Of a stretch of 54,256 nt of DNA, positions 2,828-20,283 are shown piece by piece. The first letter of the stretch is position 1. Every line of letters begins with the position of its first letter. Position numbers and translations under genes: made by a program. Source of the stretch: Oscillatoriales cyanobacterium (GTDB lineage: Bacteria > Cyanobacteriota > Cyanobacteriia > CACIAM-69d); contig RDXB01000061.1 in NCBI GenBank assembly GCA_004292515.1, forward strand, positions 1 to 54,256, given 5' to 3'. The notes under the pieces are model-generated. The model was not told where the DNA came from and made no database searches. It saw nothing but the letters and a program-made list of their open reading frames with translations.

Positions 2828-5800
2828 ATGCAATCTAACTTGCCAGCCATTGCTGATCTACCGGGCTACGATCTAACTGAAGAGTTATATCAAGGCATCA
2901 AAACCTTGGTCTATCGAGGTGTCAAGCGCGATCCAGTCAGAGATGAAACGGATGGGCAAAACGGCGAGCTGGTTATTATTAAGTTCCTACAAAAAGCCTA
3001 CCCAACCTTTCAAGAATTACTGCAATTTCGTAATCAATATACGATCGCTAGCAATCTCAATATGGCAGGCATTATTCGGCCTAAAAGCCTAGAGATCTAT
3101 GGAAATAGCTATGCCCTGGTGATGGAAGATGTAGGGGGAATTTCACTCAAGACCCTGATGCGATCGCGATCGCTAACACTGCATGAGACGATCGCGATCG
3201 CCCTGCAACTCACGGATATTTTGCACGAGTTCAGCCGCAATCGAATTATCCATAAAGATATCAAGCCAGCCAATATTTTGATTTGCCCGGACAATCAGCA
3301 AGTCAAAGTGATTGACTTTAGCTTGGCCTCTTTGTTGCCTCGCGAAACCCAGGAAATCAAGCATCCCAATGGTTTAGAGGGCACAATCACCCATTTGGCT
3401 CCCGAACAAACAGGGCGCATGAATCGGGGAATTGACTATCGCACGGATTTTTATGGACTGGGGGTGACACTGTTTGAGTTGCTGACTGGTTGTTTACCAT
3501 TTCAGTCTGAAGATCCCTTGGAATTAGTGCATTGCCACATTGCCAAGCCAGCTCCCTTTGTTTGTGATCTGAAGCCAGAACTGCCCACTCCCCTGGGCAA
3601 AATTGTGGCGAAGTTAATGGCTAAAAATGCCGAAGATCGCTATCAGAGTGCCTTGGGACTTAAGCATGATTTGGAAATTTGCCAGCAGCAGTTAGAACTA
3701 GTGGGTGTGGTTTCGGATTTTGTGATTGCTCAACATGACTTGAGCGATCGCTTTGTGATTCCTGAAAAGCTTTATGGTCGGGAATACGAGGTGCATGAAC
3801 TGCTTGCATCGTTCGATCGCGTCGCTTGTGGTGGGTCGGAGTTGATGCTGGTGGCGGGGTTTTCTGGCATTGGCAAAACCGCTGTGGTTAATGAAATCCA
3901 CAAACCCATTACTCGACAGCGGGGGTATTTTATTAAAGGAAAATTCGACCAATTTAACCGCAATATTCCCCTGTCTGCCTTTGTGCAAGCGTTCCGCCAT
4001 TTGATGTTGCAGTTGATTGGTGAAAGTGACACTCAACTAAAATATTGGCAACAAAGCATCCTCAAAGCGCTAGGTGATCATGGGCAAGTTTTGATTGAGG
4101 TGATTCCCGAGCTTGAGCGGATTGTTGGGCCACAACCAGCGGCGATCGAGCTGTCGGGAACTGCTGCCCAAAACCGATTTAATTTGCTGTTTCAAAAATT
4201 TATTCAGGTCTTTGCCACACAAGATCATCCCCTGGTGATTTTTCTGGATGATTTGCAGTGGGCTGATGCCACATCCCTGGGCTTAATTCAACTATTGATG
4301 ACTGAATCACCAGTTGGATATTTGTTATTAGTGGGAGCCTATCGAGATAATGAGGTTTCCGGTGGGCATCCCTTGATTTTGGCTCTGGATGCGATCGAGC
4401 GGGCCGGGCGCAGCATCAGTTCCATTACCTTGCAACCGCTCGATCGCACCAGTCTCAATCAATTAGTGGCAGATACCCTAAAATGCTCCAGCACCATTGC
4501 CTTGCCTCTGACCCAGCTTGTGCTGCAAAAAACTCAGGGCAATCCATTTTTTGTGACACAGTTTCTCAAAGCTCTGTATCAAGATCGGGCGATCGAATTT
4601 GACCCGCAGGCAGGCTATTGGCAATGTGACATCGCTGGAGTGCGATCGGCTGCCCTCACCGATGATGTGGTTGAGTTTATCGCCTTGCGCCTCCAAAAAT
4701 TGCCCGCTCCGACCCAGGCTGCATTGCAACTCGCCGCCTGTGTTGGCAACCAATTTGACTTAACAACATTATCAATTATTTCTGAACAATCGCCCCCCGA
4801 TGCTGCTCGTGCTCTCTGGTCAGCTCTGCAAGAAGAATTATTGCTGCCCCAAAGTGAAGTTTATAAATTTTATCTAGGGGATACACCAGCCTCATCTCGC
4901 GACAGTGCTGTGGTTGTTTATCGGTTCCTGCACGATCGCATTCAGCAGGCGGCCTATGACTCCATTCCAGAATCGGAACGGGAAATTACGCACCTCAAAA
5001 TTGGGCAATTACTCCTTCAAAAAACACCGAAAGCATATCTCAAGGATTTTATTTTTGATATTGTCAATCAGTTGAACCAAGGCAGTAGGCTAATTACGGA
5101 TTCAGTTGAGCAACAGCACCTAGCTCAACTAAACCTGATGGCGGGTCAAAAAGCCAAAGCTGCTACGGCCTACGCTGATGCAGTGCGCTATCTCGATCGC
5201 GCCCTTGCCCTACTAGGGGCTGGTCAGTGGCAGACCGCCTATTCCCTAACCCTGACCCTTCACCTGGAAGCTGCCGAAGCTGAATACTTAAATCGTAATT
5301 TTGACCGGCTCAATGATCTGGCTGAGGTCATTTTGGAGCGAGCGGAAACTCTGTTGGATTGTATGAGTGTTTATGAACTACAAATTCAGGCAAACCAAAC
5401 TCAAAGCTTGATGTTGCAGGCGATCAAAATTGGATTGGTTGCGCTCGATCGGCTCCAGATTCAACTTACGGCAGGTGATGATCCATTCACCTTGCTGGCG
5501 CTACCGGCGATCGCCGATCTCGATCAATTACCTGAGATGAAAGATCCTCAGCAAATTGCCGCCCTGCGGATTTTGATGGCGCTTTATCCATCGATTTATA
5601 TTGCTCGGCCAGAGCTGATGCAGCCCCTCATCTTGACTATGGTTCGCCTGGCTCAGGAGGGCGGCTATTCGGGCTTGGCGGCCTATGGATATGTGCTCTA
5701 CGGCATGATTTTGTGTGCCATGCCTGGTCACATTGAACAGGGATATCAAGCTGGTCAATTAGCATTGCAGTTGCTCGATCGCTTCCATGCTACTGAACTA

Positions 5801-8302
5801 AAAGCTAAAATTTATACCCTATTTAATGCTCATATTCGGTTTTGGAAAGAGCCAATTAAGGCAACATTGCCCGATTATATTGAAGGCTGCCAAAGTGGAC
5901 TCAATGTGGGCGATCTGGAATGGGCTAGCTACAATGCTATGCACTATTGTAAAAACCTGTTTTGGGCGGGTGAGCCTCTGGATCTGATTGCCAAGAAACA
6001 AGCCCCCTACCTAGACTTGCTACAAAAAAATAATCATGAATTTGCCCTGTCCTATGCTCACATTTGGGCACAAATGACTAGCAACTTACAAGGAGAAGCG
6101 CTCGATCCCGAGCAATTGATCGGTGATCAATTCAATGAAATTGATTTAATTCCACGCTGGGAGACAAGCAAAAACTATATGTCTCTCTTTGCTGTTTATC
6201 TTGCTAAAGCCAACTTATCTTATCTCTTTAAAAGTTATGATCAAGCCTGGCATTATTTGCAGTTAGCGGAACCCCACCAACAGGCATCTACGGGGTTACT
6301 GGTTGTGGCGATCTACAATTTCTATACGTCATTAACCTTGCTGGCGCTCTACGATCATGCCAACCCTGATCAACAGACTACCTATCTAACAATCATCGAT
6401 CGCAACCAAGCAGTTTTGCAACAATGGGCCCAATTAGCCCCCGACAATTTCCAACATAAATATGATCTTGTGGCGGCAGAACGATCGCGCGCTCTGGGAG
6501 ATTGGCTAGCTGCTATGGAGGGCTACGATCGCGCCATTCAAGGGGCCAAGGTGCATGGCTACCTTCAAGAAGAAGCGATCGCCAATGAACGCGCCGCTGA
6601 TTTGTATTTAGGGATGGGGCGCGAGATGTTCGTCAAGCCCTATATGACTGAAGCTTACTACTGCTATTCCCGTTGGGGGGCGATCGCCAAAGTCCAAGCA
6701 TTAATCAGTCAATATGCGGGCTTTTTACCGGCCTATGCTGATCGGCCGGCTTCAACGCTCAGTGAATCTGGCTCTTTGAGCAGCATCTCATCTATTGGTG
6801 CGAATCTAGATTTTATTAGTCTGCTCAAGGCTTCGCAAACGATTACTCAAACTCTGGATTTAGAAGCGTTATTGCAGCGTAGTTTACACATCATTTTGCA
6901 AAATGCTGGTGCACAGCGCGGAGCCTTAATCACGTTGTGCAGCAGCAATGACCCGACCTTATCCGCTGCATCTTTTCAGGGAACATCTCAGGGCAACTAT
7001 GCCATTGCGGCGATTACGCCCGATGTACCATTCCCCACCAAAACCGGCGATCTCACCACTATTCGTGCAACCCATTCTCTACCCTTAGCCGATCTGGCTG
7101 AAGATAATGCGATCGTGTGTCTGGGCATTGTGAATTACACCCTACGCACGTCAGAAAGCGTCATGATTGCCCGGGCAGAACGCGATCTGCACTTTGGCAA
7201 TCATCCCTATATACAACGCTATCAACCCCAGTCTATTTTATGTATTCCCCTGGTGACTCAAGGGCAGGTTTTAGGCGCAATTTACTTAGAAAATAATGCT
7301 ACGGAAGGTGCTTTTAATACTGAGCGCGTTGAAATTTTGACTTTGTTATCGGCTCAGGTGGCAATTTCCTTGGAAAATGCCAATCTCTACCATTCTATGG
7401 AAACTAAGGTCAAGGCTAGAACCAAAGATTTGCAACAGGCTTTGGAAGCATTACAAACGACTCAATCGCAATTAATTCAAGTCGAAAAAATGTTAAGCCT
7501 GGGAAAAGTGGTTGCTGGCATCGCCCATGAATTAAATAATCCAATTACTTTCATTCATGTCAATTTAAAATATCTCCAGCAAGTGACTCAGGATCTACTA
7601 GATTTACATGATTTTTATGCACGAATTTATCCCAATCCTGATGCAGAAATTGATCGCTATTTGAAGCAAATTGATTTTGACTTTATCCGCCAGGATGTGC
7701 CAGCAATGTTTTCATCGGTGCTGCGCGGGGCCCAACGAATTGCCGATATTGTCCAGTCGTTGCGCCAATTTTCTCGGCTGGATGAAGAGGGCTATAAGGA
7801 ATATAACTTACCGAGTAGCTTGGAGCAGACTTTGATGCTTCTCAACCATCAGTTGTTGAACCACAATATTGAAGTTTTAAAAATCATTGAACCCCTGCCC
7901 CTAATGCAATGTCAGGGGGCGCAAATTAATCAGGTGTTGATGCACTTGCTGACGAATGCGATCGATGCGATCGTGAGCAGCAATAACCCCATTAGGCGCA
8001 TCACGATTGTGGCGATCGCCCTAGATGGAGGTCAAAAAATTCAACTGCATATCAGTGATACTGGATCGGGGATTCCTGCCAATATTCAGGACAAAATCTT
8101 TGATCCCTTCTTTACAACCAAACCTGTGGGCCAGGGGACTGGTATGGGCTTGGCCATTTGCTATCAGATCATCAAACAACACCAAGGCCAGCTAGCCCTC
8201 ACCCAAGCGACCGGCAGCGGCAGTCAGTTCACGATGACCTTGCCCACTGCTGTCGATCGCACATTGTCTCAGTCCAAAACCATCACTCGGTCGAACACCT
8301 AG
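2828..8302 (+). CDS. Giant hybrid Ser/Thr protein kinase - AAA ATPase - GAF - sensor histidine kinase
   Basis: Multidomain signalling protein of about 1824 residues. Residues about 15-280 form a Ser/Thr kinase with HKDIKPANI (Asp144), the DFG-equivalent DFS (Asp163) and HLAPEQTGR. About 320-620 is an AAA-type ATPase with Walker A GFSGIGKT (Lys350) and Walker B FLDD (Asp474/475). About 650-1300 is a long helical, TPR-like stretch. About 1330-1520 is a GAF domain. A short coiled coil leads to a histidine kinase with H-box IAHELNNP (His1567) and the ATPase boxes DTGSGIP and GTGMGL (about 1770). There is no receiver domain or transmembrane helix, so a partner response regulator is expected elsewhere. 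An in-frame ATG lies nine codons upstream at 2801; I prefer 2828 because the family starts close to the kinase domain, but neither has a strong ribosome binding site. The ligand is unknown. Confidence 0.9.
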   Translation: MQSNLPAIADLPGYDLTEELYQGIKTLVYRGVKRDPVRDETDGQNGELVIIKFLQKAYPTFQELLQFRNQYTIASNLNMAGIIRPKSLEIYGNSYALVMEDVGGISLKTLMRSRSLTLHETIAIALQLTDILHEFSRNRIIHKDIKPANILICPDNQQVKVIDFSLASLLPRETQEIKHPNGLEGTITHLAPEQTGRMNRGIDYRTDFYGLGVTLFELLTGCLPFQSEDPLELVHCHIAKPAPFVCDLKPELPTPLGKIVAKLMAKNAEDRYQSALGLKHDLEICQQQLELVGVVSDFVIAQHDLSDRFVIPEKLYGREYEVHELLASFDRVACGGSELMLVAGFSGIGKTAVVNEIHKPITRQRGYFIKGKFDQFNRNIPLSAFVQAFRHLMLQLIGESDTQLKYWQQSILKALGDHGQVLIEVIPELERIVGPQPAAIELSGTAAQNRFNLLFQKFIQVFATQDHPLVIFLDDLQWADATSLGLIQLLMTESPVGYLLLVGAYRDNEVSGGHPLILALDAIERAGRSISSITLQPLDRTSLNQLVADTLKCSSTIALPLTQLVLQKTQGNPFFVTQFLKALYQDRAIEFDPQAGYWQCDIAGVRSAALTDDVVEFIALRLQKLPAPTQAALQLAACVGNQFDLTTLSIISEQSPPDAARALWSALQEELLLPQSEVYKFYLGDTPASSRDSAVVVYRFLHDRIQQAAYDSIPESEREITHLKIGQLLLQKTPKAYLKDFIFDIVNQLNQGSRLITDSVEQQHLAQLNLMAGQKAKAATAYADAVRYLDRALALLGAGQWQTAYSLTLTLHLEAAEAEYLNRNFDRLNDLAEVILERAETLLDCMSVYELQIQANQTQSLMLQAIKIGLVALDRLQIQLTAGDDPFTLLALPAIADLDQLPEMKDPQQIAALRILMALYPSIYIARPELMQPLILTMVRLAQEGGYSGLAAYGYVLYGMILCAMPGHIEQGYQAGQLALQLLDRFHATELKAKIYTLFNAHIRFWKEPIKATLPDYIEGCQSGLNVGDLEWASYNAMHYCKNLFWAGEPLDLIAKKQAPYLDLLQKNNHEFALSYAHIWAQMTSNLQGEALDPEQLIGDQFNEIDLIPRWETSKNYMSLFAVYLAKANLSYLFKSYDQAWHYLQLAEPHQQASTGLLVVAIYNFYTSLTLLALYDHANPDQQTTYLTIIDRNQAVLQQWAQLAPDNFQHKYDLVAAERSRALGDWLAAMEGYDRAIQGAKVHGYLQEEAIANERAADLYLGMGREMFVKPYMTEAYYCYSRWGAIAKVQALISQYAGFLPAYADRPASTLSESGSLSSISSIGANLDFISLLKASQTITQTLDLEALLQRSLHIILQNAGAQRGALITLCSSNDPTLSAASFQGTSQGNYAIAAITPDVPFPTKTGDLTTIRATHSLPLADLAEDNAIVCLGIVNYTLRTSESVMIARAERDLHFGNHPYIQRYQPQSILCIPLVTQGQVLGAIYLENNATEGAFNTERVEILTLLSAQVAISLENANLYHSMETKVKARTKDLQQALEALQTTQSQLIQVEKMLSLGKVVAGIAHELNNPITFIHVNLKYLQQVTQDLLDLHDFYARIYPNPDAEIDRYLKQIDFDFIRQDVPAMFSSVLRGAQRIADIVQSLRQFSRLDEEGYKEYNLPSSLEQTLMLLNHQLLNHNIEVLKIIEPLPLMQCQGAQINQVLMHLLTNAIDAIVSSNNPIRRITIVAIALDGGQKIQLHISDTGSGIPANIQDKIFDPFFTTKPVGQGTGMGLAICYQIIKQHQGQLALTQATGSGSQFTMTLPTAVDRTLSQSKTITRSNT

Positions 8303-12301: not shown

Positions 12302-13132
12302 TCACAAGGTAAATTCAGTCCAGTGATCAGGTGCCTCAATCCCTAGAAATTCTTGGTAAATTCTCTGTTTATACTCACCGCCAATCTCATTAACTGCTTC
12401 AATTAGAGCTTGATAAGTTCCTATTCCTCCCAATAAATTCCAGAATTCGTCACCAATTAAAACGACAGAATCATTTTTCATGTCAAACCAGCGCTGTGGA
12501 AATGACCAAGAATAGTTGTGTTTCTGACCATAGGGATTATATGGCAGTGCAAAATAAGCACGGGTTACAGGGCAAGGCTCCATTGCGTACAACTTAAAAA
12601 GCTTTTCTTTACTCACCTTGGTTTGATCACTATTGGGCAAAGGCGCTTTCAATTCTGCGGCAATGGTTTCACCTGTCTTTTCAGAAACTGCCCAAATATC
12701 GCAAATCACTGAAACGGGTATCAGCTCACCCCTTCCTTTGAGAATATAACTCAGCTCTTCTTGCCAGTTAGGCTTTTGACGAGACTTCGATGAATTCTTG
12801 TGCTCTAAAGCATTTAAGATTTCAGAAATTCTAGCTAATCGTCCCTTGGGAATCAATCCCTGAATTGATTCACCTAATTTTGCGGTTTCAAACGTTTGTT
12901 GGGCAACAATTAAGGCTAATCGCTCCCAAACTTTGCCAAAAGGAGTCACGAATCGTCGCTCAAAGTGTGACCCTTTGAAAATCTCGTCTGGTACTAGAGC
13001 TGCATAGAGAGGTTTGGCTGCTCTGTGTTCTTCCAGAATAAACGGATTTTTAACAATTGCATTTTCTAAAACACGATCCATCATCTGCTGAATTTCCTGT
13101 TGAATTGCCATCTTCAGAAGAGAGTTACTCAT
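12302..13132 (-). CDS. Type II restriction endonuclease, TdeIII-like
   Basis: 276 residues, directly downstream of a cytosine-5 methyltransferase gene in the same direction (57-base gap), the classic restriction-modification pairing. A PD-(D/E)xK nuclease core is visible: Asp145 in VICDIWAVS and AELKAP (Glu160, Lys162), followed by a basic helix. The flow of the core resembles the TdeIII family as I recall it; members of that family recognise GGNCC, but specificity here cannot be read from sequence. The gene is clearly A+T-richer than its neighbours and I see no HIP1 octamer within it, which suggests acquisition by horizontal transfer. The enzyme would cut unmethylated incoming DNA. Confidence 0.8.
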   Translation of the reverse strand: MSNSLLKMAIQQEIQQMMDRVLENAIVKNPFILEEHRAAKPLYAALVPDEIFKGSHFERRFVTPFGKVWERLALIVAQQTFETAKLGESIQGLIPKGRLARISEILNALEHKNSSKSRQKPNWQEELSYILKGRGELIPVSVICDIWAVSEKTGETIAAELKAPLPNSDQTKVSKEKLFKLYAMEPCPVTRAYFALPYNPYGQKHNYSWSFPQRWFDMKNDSVVLIGDEFWNLLGGIGTYQALIEAVNEIGGEYKQRIYQEFLGIEAPDHWTEFTL

Positions 13133-13189: not shown

Positions 13190-14551
13190 TTAAAAGCATT
13201 GCAGAATTGATTGTGAAATTGCGGCAATTACCGGAACAGAAACAGCATTCCCAAATTGCTTTTTGGCGGTGCTGCTATTGGGGTGGAGCGTAAACGTTTC
13301 TGGGAAGCCTTGTAGCTTAGCGTAATCTTGGGCCGTGAGCGATCGAAACCGGCCAGGATAATAAATTTCTTCTAAAAATTGTTGCTTATAGGTGTTCGGC
13401 TCACAGCCGCTGAGGGCCACCGTCGCGACAAAATCACGAGTGCCACTAGCAGTTAGTGTACCGATCGCCTCAGCAGTCGGCAAGAAAACTCGTGATACGC
13501 CCTGAATACCGGTCGAGATTTTGGAATTTTCAAAGTCAAAGTGATCGGCTGCGACTTCTCGCAAAATCTCTTTTTGTACCAAAGTCATAATTTCAGGATG
13601 TTCTAAATCTGGAATCAAACCCTGGAACTCTTCCAAGCTCAAAGGATTACCATCTTTGGGACCATATTTCTTTTTACGGCGGTTTCTCAGCAGGGTCATA
13701 CAGATGAATTTTTCCCGATCGCTGGTGGTAATCAAATCCCAGGAGTGAATTGTGCTGTGACCATCACGCACATCACTGAACAGGAAAAAATCATTTAGCT
13801 CATCAATTTTTTGGAACCGGCCACGGGAAGCGGGAATCTTGTCACCAAAGAGCGATCGCGGCGAAAACTTTAATTTGGGTTCTGAACAAGCGGGCAAATC
13901 GTCTAAGACTTCATAGAGCTTGCGGGGACGATCGCTTGCGGCAGGAAACTGAAATTGCCCCGCACGTTCTAGATCATTACGCAGACCCACTAAAAAGAGG
14001 CGATCGCGATCCTGTGGCAATCCAAAATCATAACTATTTAAAACTGTCCAGTAGACGTAATAGCCACTGTCATGGAGTTGATGAACAATAAGATCTAGGC
14101 TATTTCGATGGCGTGGTTCCGTTAGTCCTTTAACATTTTCAAATAAAAATGCCTTGGGTTGTCCCTGACGCACTAACCGACACACCTCAAACCACAAACG
14201 ACCACGCGGATCGTCAAATCCCAAGGTTTTGCCCGCGATCGACCAGGCCTGACAGGGAACACCACCCACCACCAGATCGAGCTTTTGTGGCAGTTGGTCA
14301 ACCGCTGAAACATCACCCAAATTGGGTTCATGCTTAAAACCATCACTCAGAAAATTTTGCTCATAGGTGGCGATCGCATCCCGATCAATTTCCGCATAGG
14401 CGACACAGCACCCCCCCAATTGTTCCAGCGGAATCCGAAACCCACCAATCCCTGAAAACAAATCAACAAATTTGAAAGTTGTTGTGATGGCTTGTTGGTG
14501 ATTGACCGCTAACAAGTCAAATAGATTGGTTTGAACTCCTGTGGCAACCAT
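13190..14551 (-). CDS. DNA (cytosine-5-)-methyltransferase
   Basis: 453 residues with the ordered C5-methyltransferase motifs: I (FVDLFSGIGGF, residues about 28-38, SAM binding), IV (GGVPCQAWS with catalytic Cys100), VI (FLFENVKGL, Glu138), VIII (QDRDRLFLVG) and X (FGNAVSVPV, near the C-terminus). A long variable target-recognition region lies between VIII and IX. It methylates one cytosine in the recognition sequence of the adjacent restriction enzyme to protect the host. A+T content is above neighbouring genes, but a few HIP1 octamers are present, so it may have been resident longer than the endonuclease gene or be under mixed selection. Confidence 0.93.
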   Translation of the reverse strand: MVATGVQTNLFDLLAVNHQQAITTTFKFVDLFSGIGGFRIPLEQLGGCCVAYAEIDRDAIATYEQNFLSDGFKHEPNLGDVSAVDQLPQKLDLVVGGVPCQAWSIAGKTLGFDDPRGRLWFEVCRLVRQGQPKAFLFENVKGLTEPRHRNSLDLIVHQLHDSGYYVYWTVLNSYDFGLPQDRDRLFLVGLRNDLERAGQFQFPAASDRPRKLYEVLDDLPACSEPKLKFSPRSLFGDKIPASRGRFQKIDELNDFFLFSDVRDGHSTIHSWDLITTSDREKFICMTLLRNRRKKKYGPKDGNPLSLEEFQGLIPDLEHPEIMTLVQKEILREVAADHFDFENSKISTGIQGVSRVFLPTAEAIGTLTASGTRDFVATVALSGCEPNTYKQQFLEEIYYPGRFRSLTAQDYAKLQGFPETFTLHPNSSTAKKQFGNAVSVPVIAAISQSILQCF

Positions 14552-16472: not shown

Positions 16473-16820
16473 ATGACCCCATTGCCTTGTCGGATCGATC
16501 TCGAAGCGGGATCGCTCACATTCAATTACGCTCCCGACGCGGCGCGCCAACTGCAAGACCGCATCCAAACCTTGGTGCAGTCGATCAAGGTAGCCAGCCA
16601 AGCCCAACCGGGCGATCGCCCCGCCCCGCAACCCAACTTGGACTATCAATATGCGGGTGAGGTCTTTTTAGAAGTGTTTTGTAATCCCAATATTTGGCCA
16701 ACGCCCTTTGCGGCCAAAGTTTTGCTGACGGTGCGGGACGATCGAATTCGCCTGAGCCTAGAAACACCGCTCGATCGCCTGATTGCCAACATCAACGACT
16801 ACCTAGACAATAGCCGTTGA
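16473..16820 (+). CDS. Hypothetical protein, small cytoplasmic
   Basis: 115 residues without a recognised domain. Soluble, mixed alpha/beta by inspection: an early helix (DAARQLQDRIQTLVQSIK), then strands (YAGEVFLEVFCNP, AAKVLLTVRDDRIRLSLETP) and a C-terminal helix (LIANINDYLDN). Codon use and HIP1 content match neighbours, supporting a real gene. It ends about 80 bases before a small membrane protein gene in the same direction, possibly co-transcribed. Confidence 0.7.
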   Translation: MTPLPCRIDLEAGSLTFNYAPDAARQLQDRIQTLVQSIKVASQAQPGDRPAPQPNLDYQYAGEVFLEVFCNPNIWPTPFAAKVLLTVRDDRIRLSLETPLDRLIANINDYLDNSR

Positions 16821-16899
16821 TTAACCCCTAGCTTGGTTGCTGGCGGTGGTCAGCACCGCAGCCCTTGACCCATTCGCTCATTTCCTGAACACCTTGCTC

Positions 16900-17262
16900 A
16901 TGTCCCTTGCTACCCTCGATGCGGTTTTGCAGTTCCTCTACGGCTGGATGCCCTTGATCGCAGGGTTGGCGGGCATTTGGATTTGGCGGCGCTACGGGAA
17001 CTTGGGCTGGGGCCTGTTTGGCACGATCGCCCTACTACAACTGCTAGGGGCTTACCTGTGGCCAGCCGTGGCCCTGGAGCCATCGAGCGAGCGGGTGACA
17101 TGGTTTACGATCGCCTTAGTTGCCTTTTGGTCTGCGGGCATTGTGCAGCAGGTGCGCCGTAAATTGCCCCCAAAGTTAACCCCAAAGTTAACCCCACCCT
17201 TGACCCCAACCATTGAGGGCGATCGTCCTGAGGTTGCCTCTCACGATTCGGCCTCAGATTAG
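16900..17262 (+). CDS. Hypothetical small membrane protein
   Basis: 120 residues from the ATG at 16900; an in-frame TTG at 16837 would add 21 residues. Three hydrophobic segments are visible: about 10-28 (LYGWMPLIAGLAGIWIW), 35-55 (LGWGLFGTIALLQLLGAYLW) and 66-84 (TWFTIALVAFWSAGIVQQV). The cytoplasmic tail is basic and then proline-rich. The tail contains a 12-bp tandem duplication at the DNA level (KLTPKLTP). No family was recognised. It lies between a soluble unknown and the CDF transporter, all on the + strand. Confidence 0.6.
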   Translation: MSLATLDAVLQFLYGWMPLIAGLAGIWIWRRYGNLGWGLFGTIALLQLLGAYLWPAVALEPSSERVTWFTIALVAFWSAGIVQQVRRKLPPKLTPKLTPPLTPTIEGDRPEVASHDSASD

Positions 17263-17323
17263 GCAACATCATGGCCATTGCGTCCCGTCTAAGTCTTGAC
17301 CCTTGGTGGTCTGCTTGTTTGTT

Positions 17324-18265
17324 ATGCCGAATTCCACCCATGTGTTGAGCACGGCCAAGCGCCAGAAATTGATCCAGCGCGTGTTGTGGCTGACCCTGTT
17401 TTTGAATTTGTTGGTGTTGGTGATTAAGGCGCTGGTGGGCTGGGCTACGGGGTCACTCAGCCTGTTGGCCGACGCGCTCCACAGCGTCACGGACAGCGCC
17501 AGCAACGTGTTGGGTTTAATGACCAGTCGCCTGGCCGACCCGCGCCCCGATCGCGAACATCCCTACGGCCACCAAAAATACGAGGCGATCGGCGCGTTGG
17601 GCATTGCTGCCTTTTTGGGGGTGGCTTGTTTTGAAATTTTGCAGGGGGCGATCGCGCGGATTGGCGGCCATGGCGACCCGGTGAATGTGTCGGGCCCGGC
17701 GATCGCCCTCACATTCCTGGTCTTGGCGATCAATGTGCTGGTGGCCCTCTATGAGCGAAAGTGGGGCAACAGCCTCAACAGCAATATCCTGATCGCCGAT
17801 GCCAAACACACCATGGGTGATGTGTGGATTACTCTGACGGTGATTGGTGGCCTGCTGGGGGTGTGGTGGGGCCAAACTTGGTTGGATGTGGCCCTGGCGT
17901 TTCCGGTGGCCCTGCTGGTGTTTAAGAGTGGCTGGGATGTGTTGCGATCGAACCTGCCTTGGCTGATTGATGAAATGGCCGTTGCCCCGGAAGAAATTCA
18001 TGACCTGGTGTTGGGAGTGCCGGGGGTAATCAATTGCCACGACATTGCCTCGCGCGGGGCCCTGGGTCGTCAGGTATTTATGGAAATGCACTTGATTGTG
18101 GCAGCCGAAGACGTGCGCACCGCCCACGACATCACTGAGGCCGTTGAGCAAGTCCTGTGCGATCGCTACCATCCCGTGCGCCTGACGATCCACATCGAAC
18201 CCCAGGGCTACCAGAGCGATCGCCTAACCTACAGCATGGACTCCGTGGAGTATAAGCAAGCTTAA
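17324..18265 (+). CDS. Cation diffusion facilitator (CDF) family metal transporter
   Basis: 313 residues from the ATG at 17324 (a TTG 21 bases upstream is possible). Proton-coupled divalent metal exporter of the inner membrane. Six hydrophobic segments lie in the first 210 residues. Metal-site motifs are present: LLADALHSVTDSASN in TM2, HPYGHQKYEAIGAL after it and ADAKHTMGDVWIT in TM5. The C-terminal cytoplasmic domain (residues about 215-300) has the ferredoxin-like CDF regulatory fold with HDIASRGALGRQVFMEMHL. The D/H pattern is compatible with zinc, iron or manganese; the substrate cannot be fixed. A candidate DnaA-binding region lies immediately downstream. Confidence 0.92.
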   Translation: MPNSTHVLSTAKRQKLIQRVLWLTLFLNLLVLVIKALVGWATGSLSLLADALHSVTDSASNVLGLMTSRLADPRPDREHPYGHQKYEAIGALGIAAFLGVACFEILQGAIARIGGHGDPVNVSGPAIALTFLVLAINVLVALYERKWGNSLNSNILIADAKHTMGDVWITLTVIGGLLGVWWGQTWLDVALAFPVALLVFKSGWDVLRSNLPWLIDEMAVAPEEIHDLVLGVPGVINCHDIASRGALGRQVFMEMHLIVAAEDVRTAHDITEAVEQVLCDRYHPVRLTIHIEPQGYQSDRLTYSMDSVEYKQA

Positions 18266-18348
18266 ATATAATTTAATAATTGGTTAAAAATTCAGAGTTT
18301 TCCACAAGCAAACCGAGGTTTTCCACAGAAAAGATTTAGTTTTCCACA
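18262..18348 (+). other. Origin-like site: AT-rich stretch plus three phased DnaA boxes
   Basis: About 35 bases of almost pure A/T (18262-18296, including the CDF stop) are followed by TTTTCCACA at 18298-18306, 18319-18327 and 18340-18348, all in the same orientation, with starts exactly 21 bases apart. TTTTCCACA is the form of the DnaA box generally reported in cyanobacteria. The layout of an unwinding-element-like AT tract next to phased DnaA boxes is that of a minimal bacterial oriC. dnaA and dnaN are not in this window, and no other boxes were noticed in it. Alternatives: a DnaA-titration site or DnaA-regulated promoter. Confidence 0.55.
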
Positions 18349-18356
18349 GGATAATA

Positions 18357-18385
18357 GCCGCTTACTCTTCTGTTGAGTAAGCGGC
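18357..18385. terminator. Perfect 11-bp hairpin between convergent genes
   Basis: GCCGCTTACTC / GAGTAAGCGGC around a 7-base loop, between the convergent CDF and guaA genes and directly after the DnaA boxes. No U-tract follows on either strand, so it is a transcription-barrier candidate or part of the origin-like structure. Confidence 0.45.
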
Positions 18386-18548: not shown

Positions 18549-18675
18549 TCGTTGTTACAAGGGGCTGAAGCCCCTTGCTGCCTCACGAGCCGAATGATCG
18601 GTTTGCGGTGGAATTGCGGTGGAATTGCGGTGGAATCAGGGTTGTGGGCTGATTTGACGACTTACCCTTAGCCCA
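18549..18675 (+). repeat. Dispersed repeat, partial copy (R3) with embedded 11-bp array
   Basis: Starts with GTTGTTACAAGGGGCTGAAGC (palindrome core at 18559-18576, one central change). It continues into three tandem copies of GCGGTGGAATT (about 18607-18639) and ends with CAGGGTTGTGGGCTGATTTG. This matches the second half of R2, with the array inserted by local expansion. Confidence 0.65.

Positions 18676-20283
<1,608 letters not shown>

Follow-up and report, generated by a model that had tools for sequence, protein, structure and literature searches.

A helically phased DnaA-box array downstream of guaA is a probable non-origin DnaA-binding site in several cyanobacterial families

Results

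We examined a locus within a 54,256-nucleotide stretch of DNA from an Oscillatoriales cyanobacterium (hereafter the window; contig C103 of a 111-contig, 3.98-Mb assembly). Three exact copies of the DnaA box TTTTCCACA are placed in the 3′–3′ gap of a convergent CDF cation efflux gene and guaA, with core chromosomal genes on either side (Table 1). The initial annotation had described three identical boxes in the same orientation at 21-base steps, preceded directly by an A/T tract and followed by a perfect 11-bp hairpin, and we recovered each of these features. The 54-kb window holds no other exact copy; shuffled sequences contain 0.63 on average, so that a single box would be unremarkable. The three boxes are identical to the boxes of the genome's own oriC and to the published cyanobacterial consensus (PMC4674748). 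GC content drops to 0.30 at the array from about 0.55 in its surroundings, and the genome, previously described as GC-rich, is moderately but not strongly so. The first bases of the AT-rich tract include the CDF stop codon (18263–18265), and only 9 of 54,220 36-bp segments of the window reach 86% A+T, every one of them overlapping the tract. Elsewhere in the region, a tandem repeat of ~11–12 bp (TGCGGTGGAAT, three copies) occupies 18603–18636 between the array and the guaA stop codon. An apparent C5 cytosine methyltransferase is encoded at 13190–14551 (minus strand) beside an ORF at 12302–13132 (minus strand) that could be its restriction partner, both judged from translation only.

Table 1. 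Features of the array locus and of the DUF2811-linked array in the same genome. Positions refer to the window unless a locus prefix is given.
Feature	Position	Strand	Remarks
115-aa conserved hypothetical gene	16473–16820	+	Same syntenic block; homolog adjoins array in L161 and L163
141-aa hypothetical gene	16837–17262	+	Between 115-aa gene and CDF gene; homologs only inside the window's family
CDF cation efflux gene	17303–18265 (probable ATG start 17324)	+	Pfam Cation_efflux and ZT_dimer; 3′ end abuts array
AT-rich tract 5′ of boxes	18262–18297	.	36 bp, 86% A+T; ~22 bp (ATTTAATAATTGGTTAAAAAT region) conserved in genus, not across families
DnaA box 1	18298–18306	+	Exact TTTTCCACA; identical to boxes of own oriC
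DnaA box 2	18319–18327	+	Exact TTTTCCACA, 21 bp from box 1; retained in two congeners
DnaA box 3	18340–18348	+	Exact TTTTCCACA, 21 bp from box 2; retained in two congeners
Perfect hairpin	18357–18385	+	11-bp stem of perfect pairs, 7-nt loop; probable terminator between convergent genes
guaA, GMP synthase	18676–20283	−	Pfam GATase and GMP_synt_C; convergent, 3′ end faces array
DUF2811 (PF10929) gene, 66-aa core cyanobacterial protein	L032:7922–8119	−	Own genome, contig C3; array at L032:8357–8419

Comparison with homologous arrays separated the boxes from the DNA around them. Two congeners share the boxes and ~22 bp of the AT tract with the window, whereas their downstream sequence, hairpin included, has diverged; across families, the boxes alone remain and the flanks are not conserved, which identifies the phased boxes as the element. 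The AT tract, kept in the genus and a few other genomes and absent from most homologous arrays, is by this comparison a lineage-specific addition, and for the same reason we rejected it as a universal DUE. The hairpin was rejected as part of the conserved element because its sequence differs even within the genus; it has no T-run and was not called by a terminator scan, and is most likely a transcription terminator. An RNA element was also rejected, with no Rfam match at the gathering score.

The initial annotation had offered the site as a possible oriC and named a genome-wide count of box clusters as a check. Scanning the whole assembly, we counted 56 copies of TTTTCCACA compared to 21 for a reversed control and found three clusters: 10 boxes in 216 bp on both strands at C43:35510–35725, four boxes at C3:8357–8419 and the three boxes of the window. 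The C43 cluster, not the window, is the densest of the genome and lies ~650 bp from dnaN, the usual neighbor of oriC in cyanobacteria (PMC4674748), and dnaA is on contig C88, consistent with the earlier statement that neither gene is near the array. Within the C43 cluster, a degenerate box adjoins the box at L031:7718, and beyond a short GC spacer there are four CTA repeats (3′-GAT-5′ DnaA-trios) and then A/T-rich DNA. In the basal unwinding system (BUS), DnaA-trios lie beside a box (PMC8287927), and at the level of sequence the C43 site is a textbook basal unwinding system with four perfect DnaA-trios. At most one such triplet follows any box of the window or C3 clusters, and the AT-rich tract of the window array lies on the opposite side of the boxes relative to the C43 site. 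The window array thus has neither the highest box density nor adjacency to dnaN or dnaA nor DnaA-trios, and we rejected it as oriC.

Taking the density of unclustered boxes (38 in 3.98 Mb), we estimated how often such an arrangement would arise by chance: about 8 × 10⁻⁹ same-strand triplets with two 20–22 bp steps are expected per genome. Searching the class for the pattern, we recovered phased triplets from 103 of 390 genomes, whereas the reversed-pattern control matched in none of the 390, in agreement with the earlier remark that the arrangement is rarely fortuitous. In unbiased sets counted without a spacing filter, neighboring same-strand boxes are mostly 11, 20–22, 31–33 or 44 bp apart, each a whole number of helical turns.

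Sorted by their flanks, the phased-triplet matches belong mainly to three sets: those at dnaN (oriC), those at guaA, whether or not the CDF gene is present, and those at DUF2811. Among CDF relatives in named genomes, 20–21-bp arrays directly follow the CDF gene in Coleofasciculus, Roseofilum, Laspinema, Oscillatoria, Phormidium pseudopriestleyi and a Pleurocapsales strain. We then sampled guaA loci with no selection on boxes, locating the gene in 87 genomes and reading the flanks in 76. Of the 76 genomes, 22 have three or more boxes in a run in the guaA 3′ flank and none has such a run in the 5′ flank, and guaA flanks that lack an array are essentially box-free, an all-or-none pattern. The guaA-linked arrays span at least nine families and are always on the strand opposite guaA. 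A CDF gene usually lies across from guaA, and in some genomes it is absent or the array has another gene beside it; two genomes of family f30 carry the array adjoining a homolog of the 115-aa gene from the same gene block. Nostocales CDF loci mostly lack an array although CDF and guaA are close, which indicates that the CDF–guaA pair does not generally carry an array. In six closed or large-contig genomes the array lies 10–43% of the genome from oriC/dnaN, or about 1–48% when guaA and DUF2811 arrays are taken together, and we rejected a fixed array–origin distance. Two further observations concern boxes at other positions or orientations: box pairs that follow the CDF gene in the Spirulina MAGs L097 (near 5769–5797) and L114 (near 6010–6038) are inverted relative to other CDF-linked arrays, and in family f24 (L173, L178, L182, L187, L188) the gene of a 200-aa coiled-coil-like protein is closely followed by additional phased triplets.

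Of the triplets outside oriC and without guaA linkage, nearly all are upstream of DUF2811 (PF10929); the cluster on C3 in the same assembly is one of them. Across 77 DUF2811 loci, read without box selection except for a handful fetched earlier for their boxes, at least two phased boxes lie upstream of the gene and on its strand in 70 genomes, compared to two of 77 downstream. These arrays are typically 230–700 bp upstream, often with an inverted box 44–46 bp further on. DUF2811 is present in 86 of 87 cyanobacterial genomes. Its predicted structure has three helices (mean pLDDT 71.5) and no confident fold, a DUF2811 profile search of PDB sequences returned nothing significant, and we found no paper naming DUF2811 in the open-access literature. 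A gene read from sequence as protoporphyrinogen oxidase, HemJ-like or HemG/HemY-like, often follows DUF2811 (L041, L150, L166, L174, L186, L203, L204, L206, L214–L216).

Genomes that lack dnaA provided a natural comparison for both the boxes and DUF2811. DnaA domain IV is absent from 9 of 50 genomes of one family (G296, G316, G356, G394–G398, G424). Paired boxes, defined as two exact boxes within 26 bp with oriC boxes counted too, occur in one of these nine genomes and in 17 of 17 examined relatives with DnaA (Fisher p = 6 × 10⁻⁶), in a set where several dnaA-less genomes seem to have undergone reduction and the losses cluster in the phylogeny. Loss of paired boxes together with dnaA supports the prediction that these sequences are DnaA boxes, a point that bears on box identity and not on the role of this array. 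DUF2811 is missing, broken or a pseudogene in six of the nine dnaA-less genomes compared to two of the 17 relatives with dnaA, both of which are incomplete assemblies, suggesting that DUF2811 and DnaA may be linked.

Discussion

The comparative evidence leads us to propose that the array is probably a conserved non-origin DnaA-binding site that, with its DUF2811-linked sister array, lowers or tunes the free or active DnaA available to oriC. DnaA binding at the array, its cooperativity and its control of initiation are what we infer. Same-orientation boxes two helical turns apart would align DnaA monomers along the same face of the DNA, an arrangement expected to promote cooperative binding, and in vitro the Cyanothece DnaA domain IV binds pairs of boxes and not clearly single ones (PMC4674748). 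Set in the 3′–3′ gap of CDF and guaA, the array would disturb no promoter; it could hold DnaA away from oriC, leaving less free (or active) DnaA there, and may act in concert with the DUF2811-linked array. Several features of the locus bear on this reading: the 3′–3′ position disfavors promoter control, the lack of DnaA-trios disfavors unwinding, rigid phasing favors a defined cooperative DnaA complex, and the variable distance from oriC is easier to reconcile with setting of the DnaA pool than with timing. The initial annotation had also listed a titration site and a DnaA-controlled element as possibilities; a DnaA-binding or titration locus fits the conserved position, the helical phasing and the loss of paired boxes with dnaA, whereas its oriC reading falls and a promoter-type controlled element is unlikely for an array between two 3′ ends. 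Some points count against the proposal. The distance from oriC/dnaN varies, guaA lacks an array in about 70% of the genomes sampled, where it must be dispensable or relocated, and for titration three sites are few when oriC contributes at least 10 boxes and about 38 more are scattered.

Extra-oriC DnaA-box loci are established in other bacteria, and our search of the open-access literature found no description of cyanobacterial clusters corresponding to datA, DARS or the B. subtilis type. Like the B. subtilis DBCs, the window array consists of several consensus DnaA boxes outside oriC. Deletion of all six DBCs causes early initiation, so that DnaA is restrained by them (Okumura et al. 2012, as reviewed in PMC5295017). 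Unlike the DBCs, to which we liken it on sequence grounds, the cyanobacterial system has one or two arrays with rigid 20–22 bp tandem spacing that are tied to particular genes across the phylum. E. coli datA, which lowers DnaA activity, is likewise a non-coding extra-origin DnaA-box locus, but it comprises five boxes and requires IHF (PMC4585315), whose binding site is located between boxes, compared to three tandem boxes here at variable distance from the origin. E. coli DARS1 and DARS2 share a three-box core, a non-coding location and conserved spacing with the window array; in the MG1655 bioD–uvrB gap (DARS1), however, the boxes are oriented +,−,− at 14 and 12 bp, whereas those of the window are all on the same strand at 21 and 21 bp. 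Conserved relative positions are reported for datA and DARS in E. coli (PMC5010248), in contrast to the range of oriC distances found here. Cyanobacterial oriC beside dnaN in S. elongatus, Anabaena and Cyanothece also uses the TTTTCCACA box with helical spacing (PMC4674748), but the window array lacks a DnaA-trio and dnaN, has three boxes only and lies between convergent genes. By analogy, the role of the array is most likely similar to that of the B. subtilis DBCs or E. coli datA and DARS, with a geometry of its own.

Other explanations weigh differently against this evidence. The analogy could extend further than a DnaA reservoir, with phased DnaA protomers changing nucleotide state at an active site that works like DARS (exchanging ADP for ATP) or like datA (hydrolyzing ATP); E. 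coli spacing and sites are strongly conserved (PMC4585315), and the rigid phasing here suggests a defined complex and not merely a sink, but the single orientation and 21-bp steps depart from DARS1 and conservation of the flanks does not extend across families, and we consider such an activity rather unlikely. Less likely still is a transcriptional role in which bound DnaA regulates guaA, the CDF gene or an antisense or small transcript and thereby couples the supply of nucleotides to replication. The guaA enzyme makes GMP, DnaA is a transcription factor in other bacteria, and both the recurrent guaA linkage and the sister array upstream of DUF2811 on the same strand are in its favor. Against it, the array lies at the 3′ ends of both genes and 2 kb from the guaA start, the single promoter-like match in the region (near 20200) is at chance level, and in some genomes the array lacks its CDF partner or neighbors another gene.

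A chromosomal origin or second origin at the array is very improbable: the boxes do adjoin an AT-rich tract, but that tract is not retained in most homologous arrays, no trios accompany the three boxes and the C43 candidate beside dnaN carries both the denser cluster and the four DnaA-trios. The probability that the array arose by chance, or is left over from the origin of an integrated plasmid or phage, is close to nil; we found no support for this reading, and it is refuted by the conservation of the array, with the same position and orientation in at least nine families, core chromosomal genes on both sides and a vanishing number of triplets expected per genome. Returning to the proposed non-origin array that tunes DnaA, we tentatively suggest, as a possibility that falls well short of even odds, that the guaA/CDF arrays and those upstream of DUF2811 constitute an undescribed two-site DnaA control system, in which DUF2811 would act as a partner or regulator linked to DnaA and decay upon loss of dnaA.

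Control of replication initiation in polyploid cyanobacteria is poorly known, and dnaA itself is essential in S. elongatus and dispensable in Synechocystis PCC 6803 and Synechococcus PCC 7002 (PMC7198777). Arrays at fixed genes in many families, with boxes that are gone together with dnaA, offer concrete short DNA targets for tests of DnaA titration or switching, and DUF2811 adds one further gene target for the study of cyanobacterial DnaA control.
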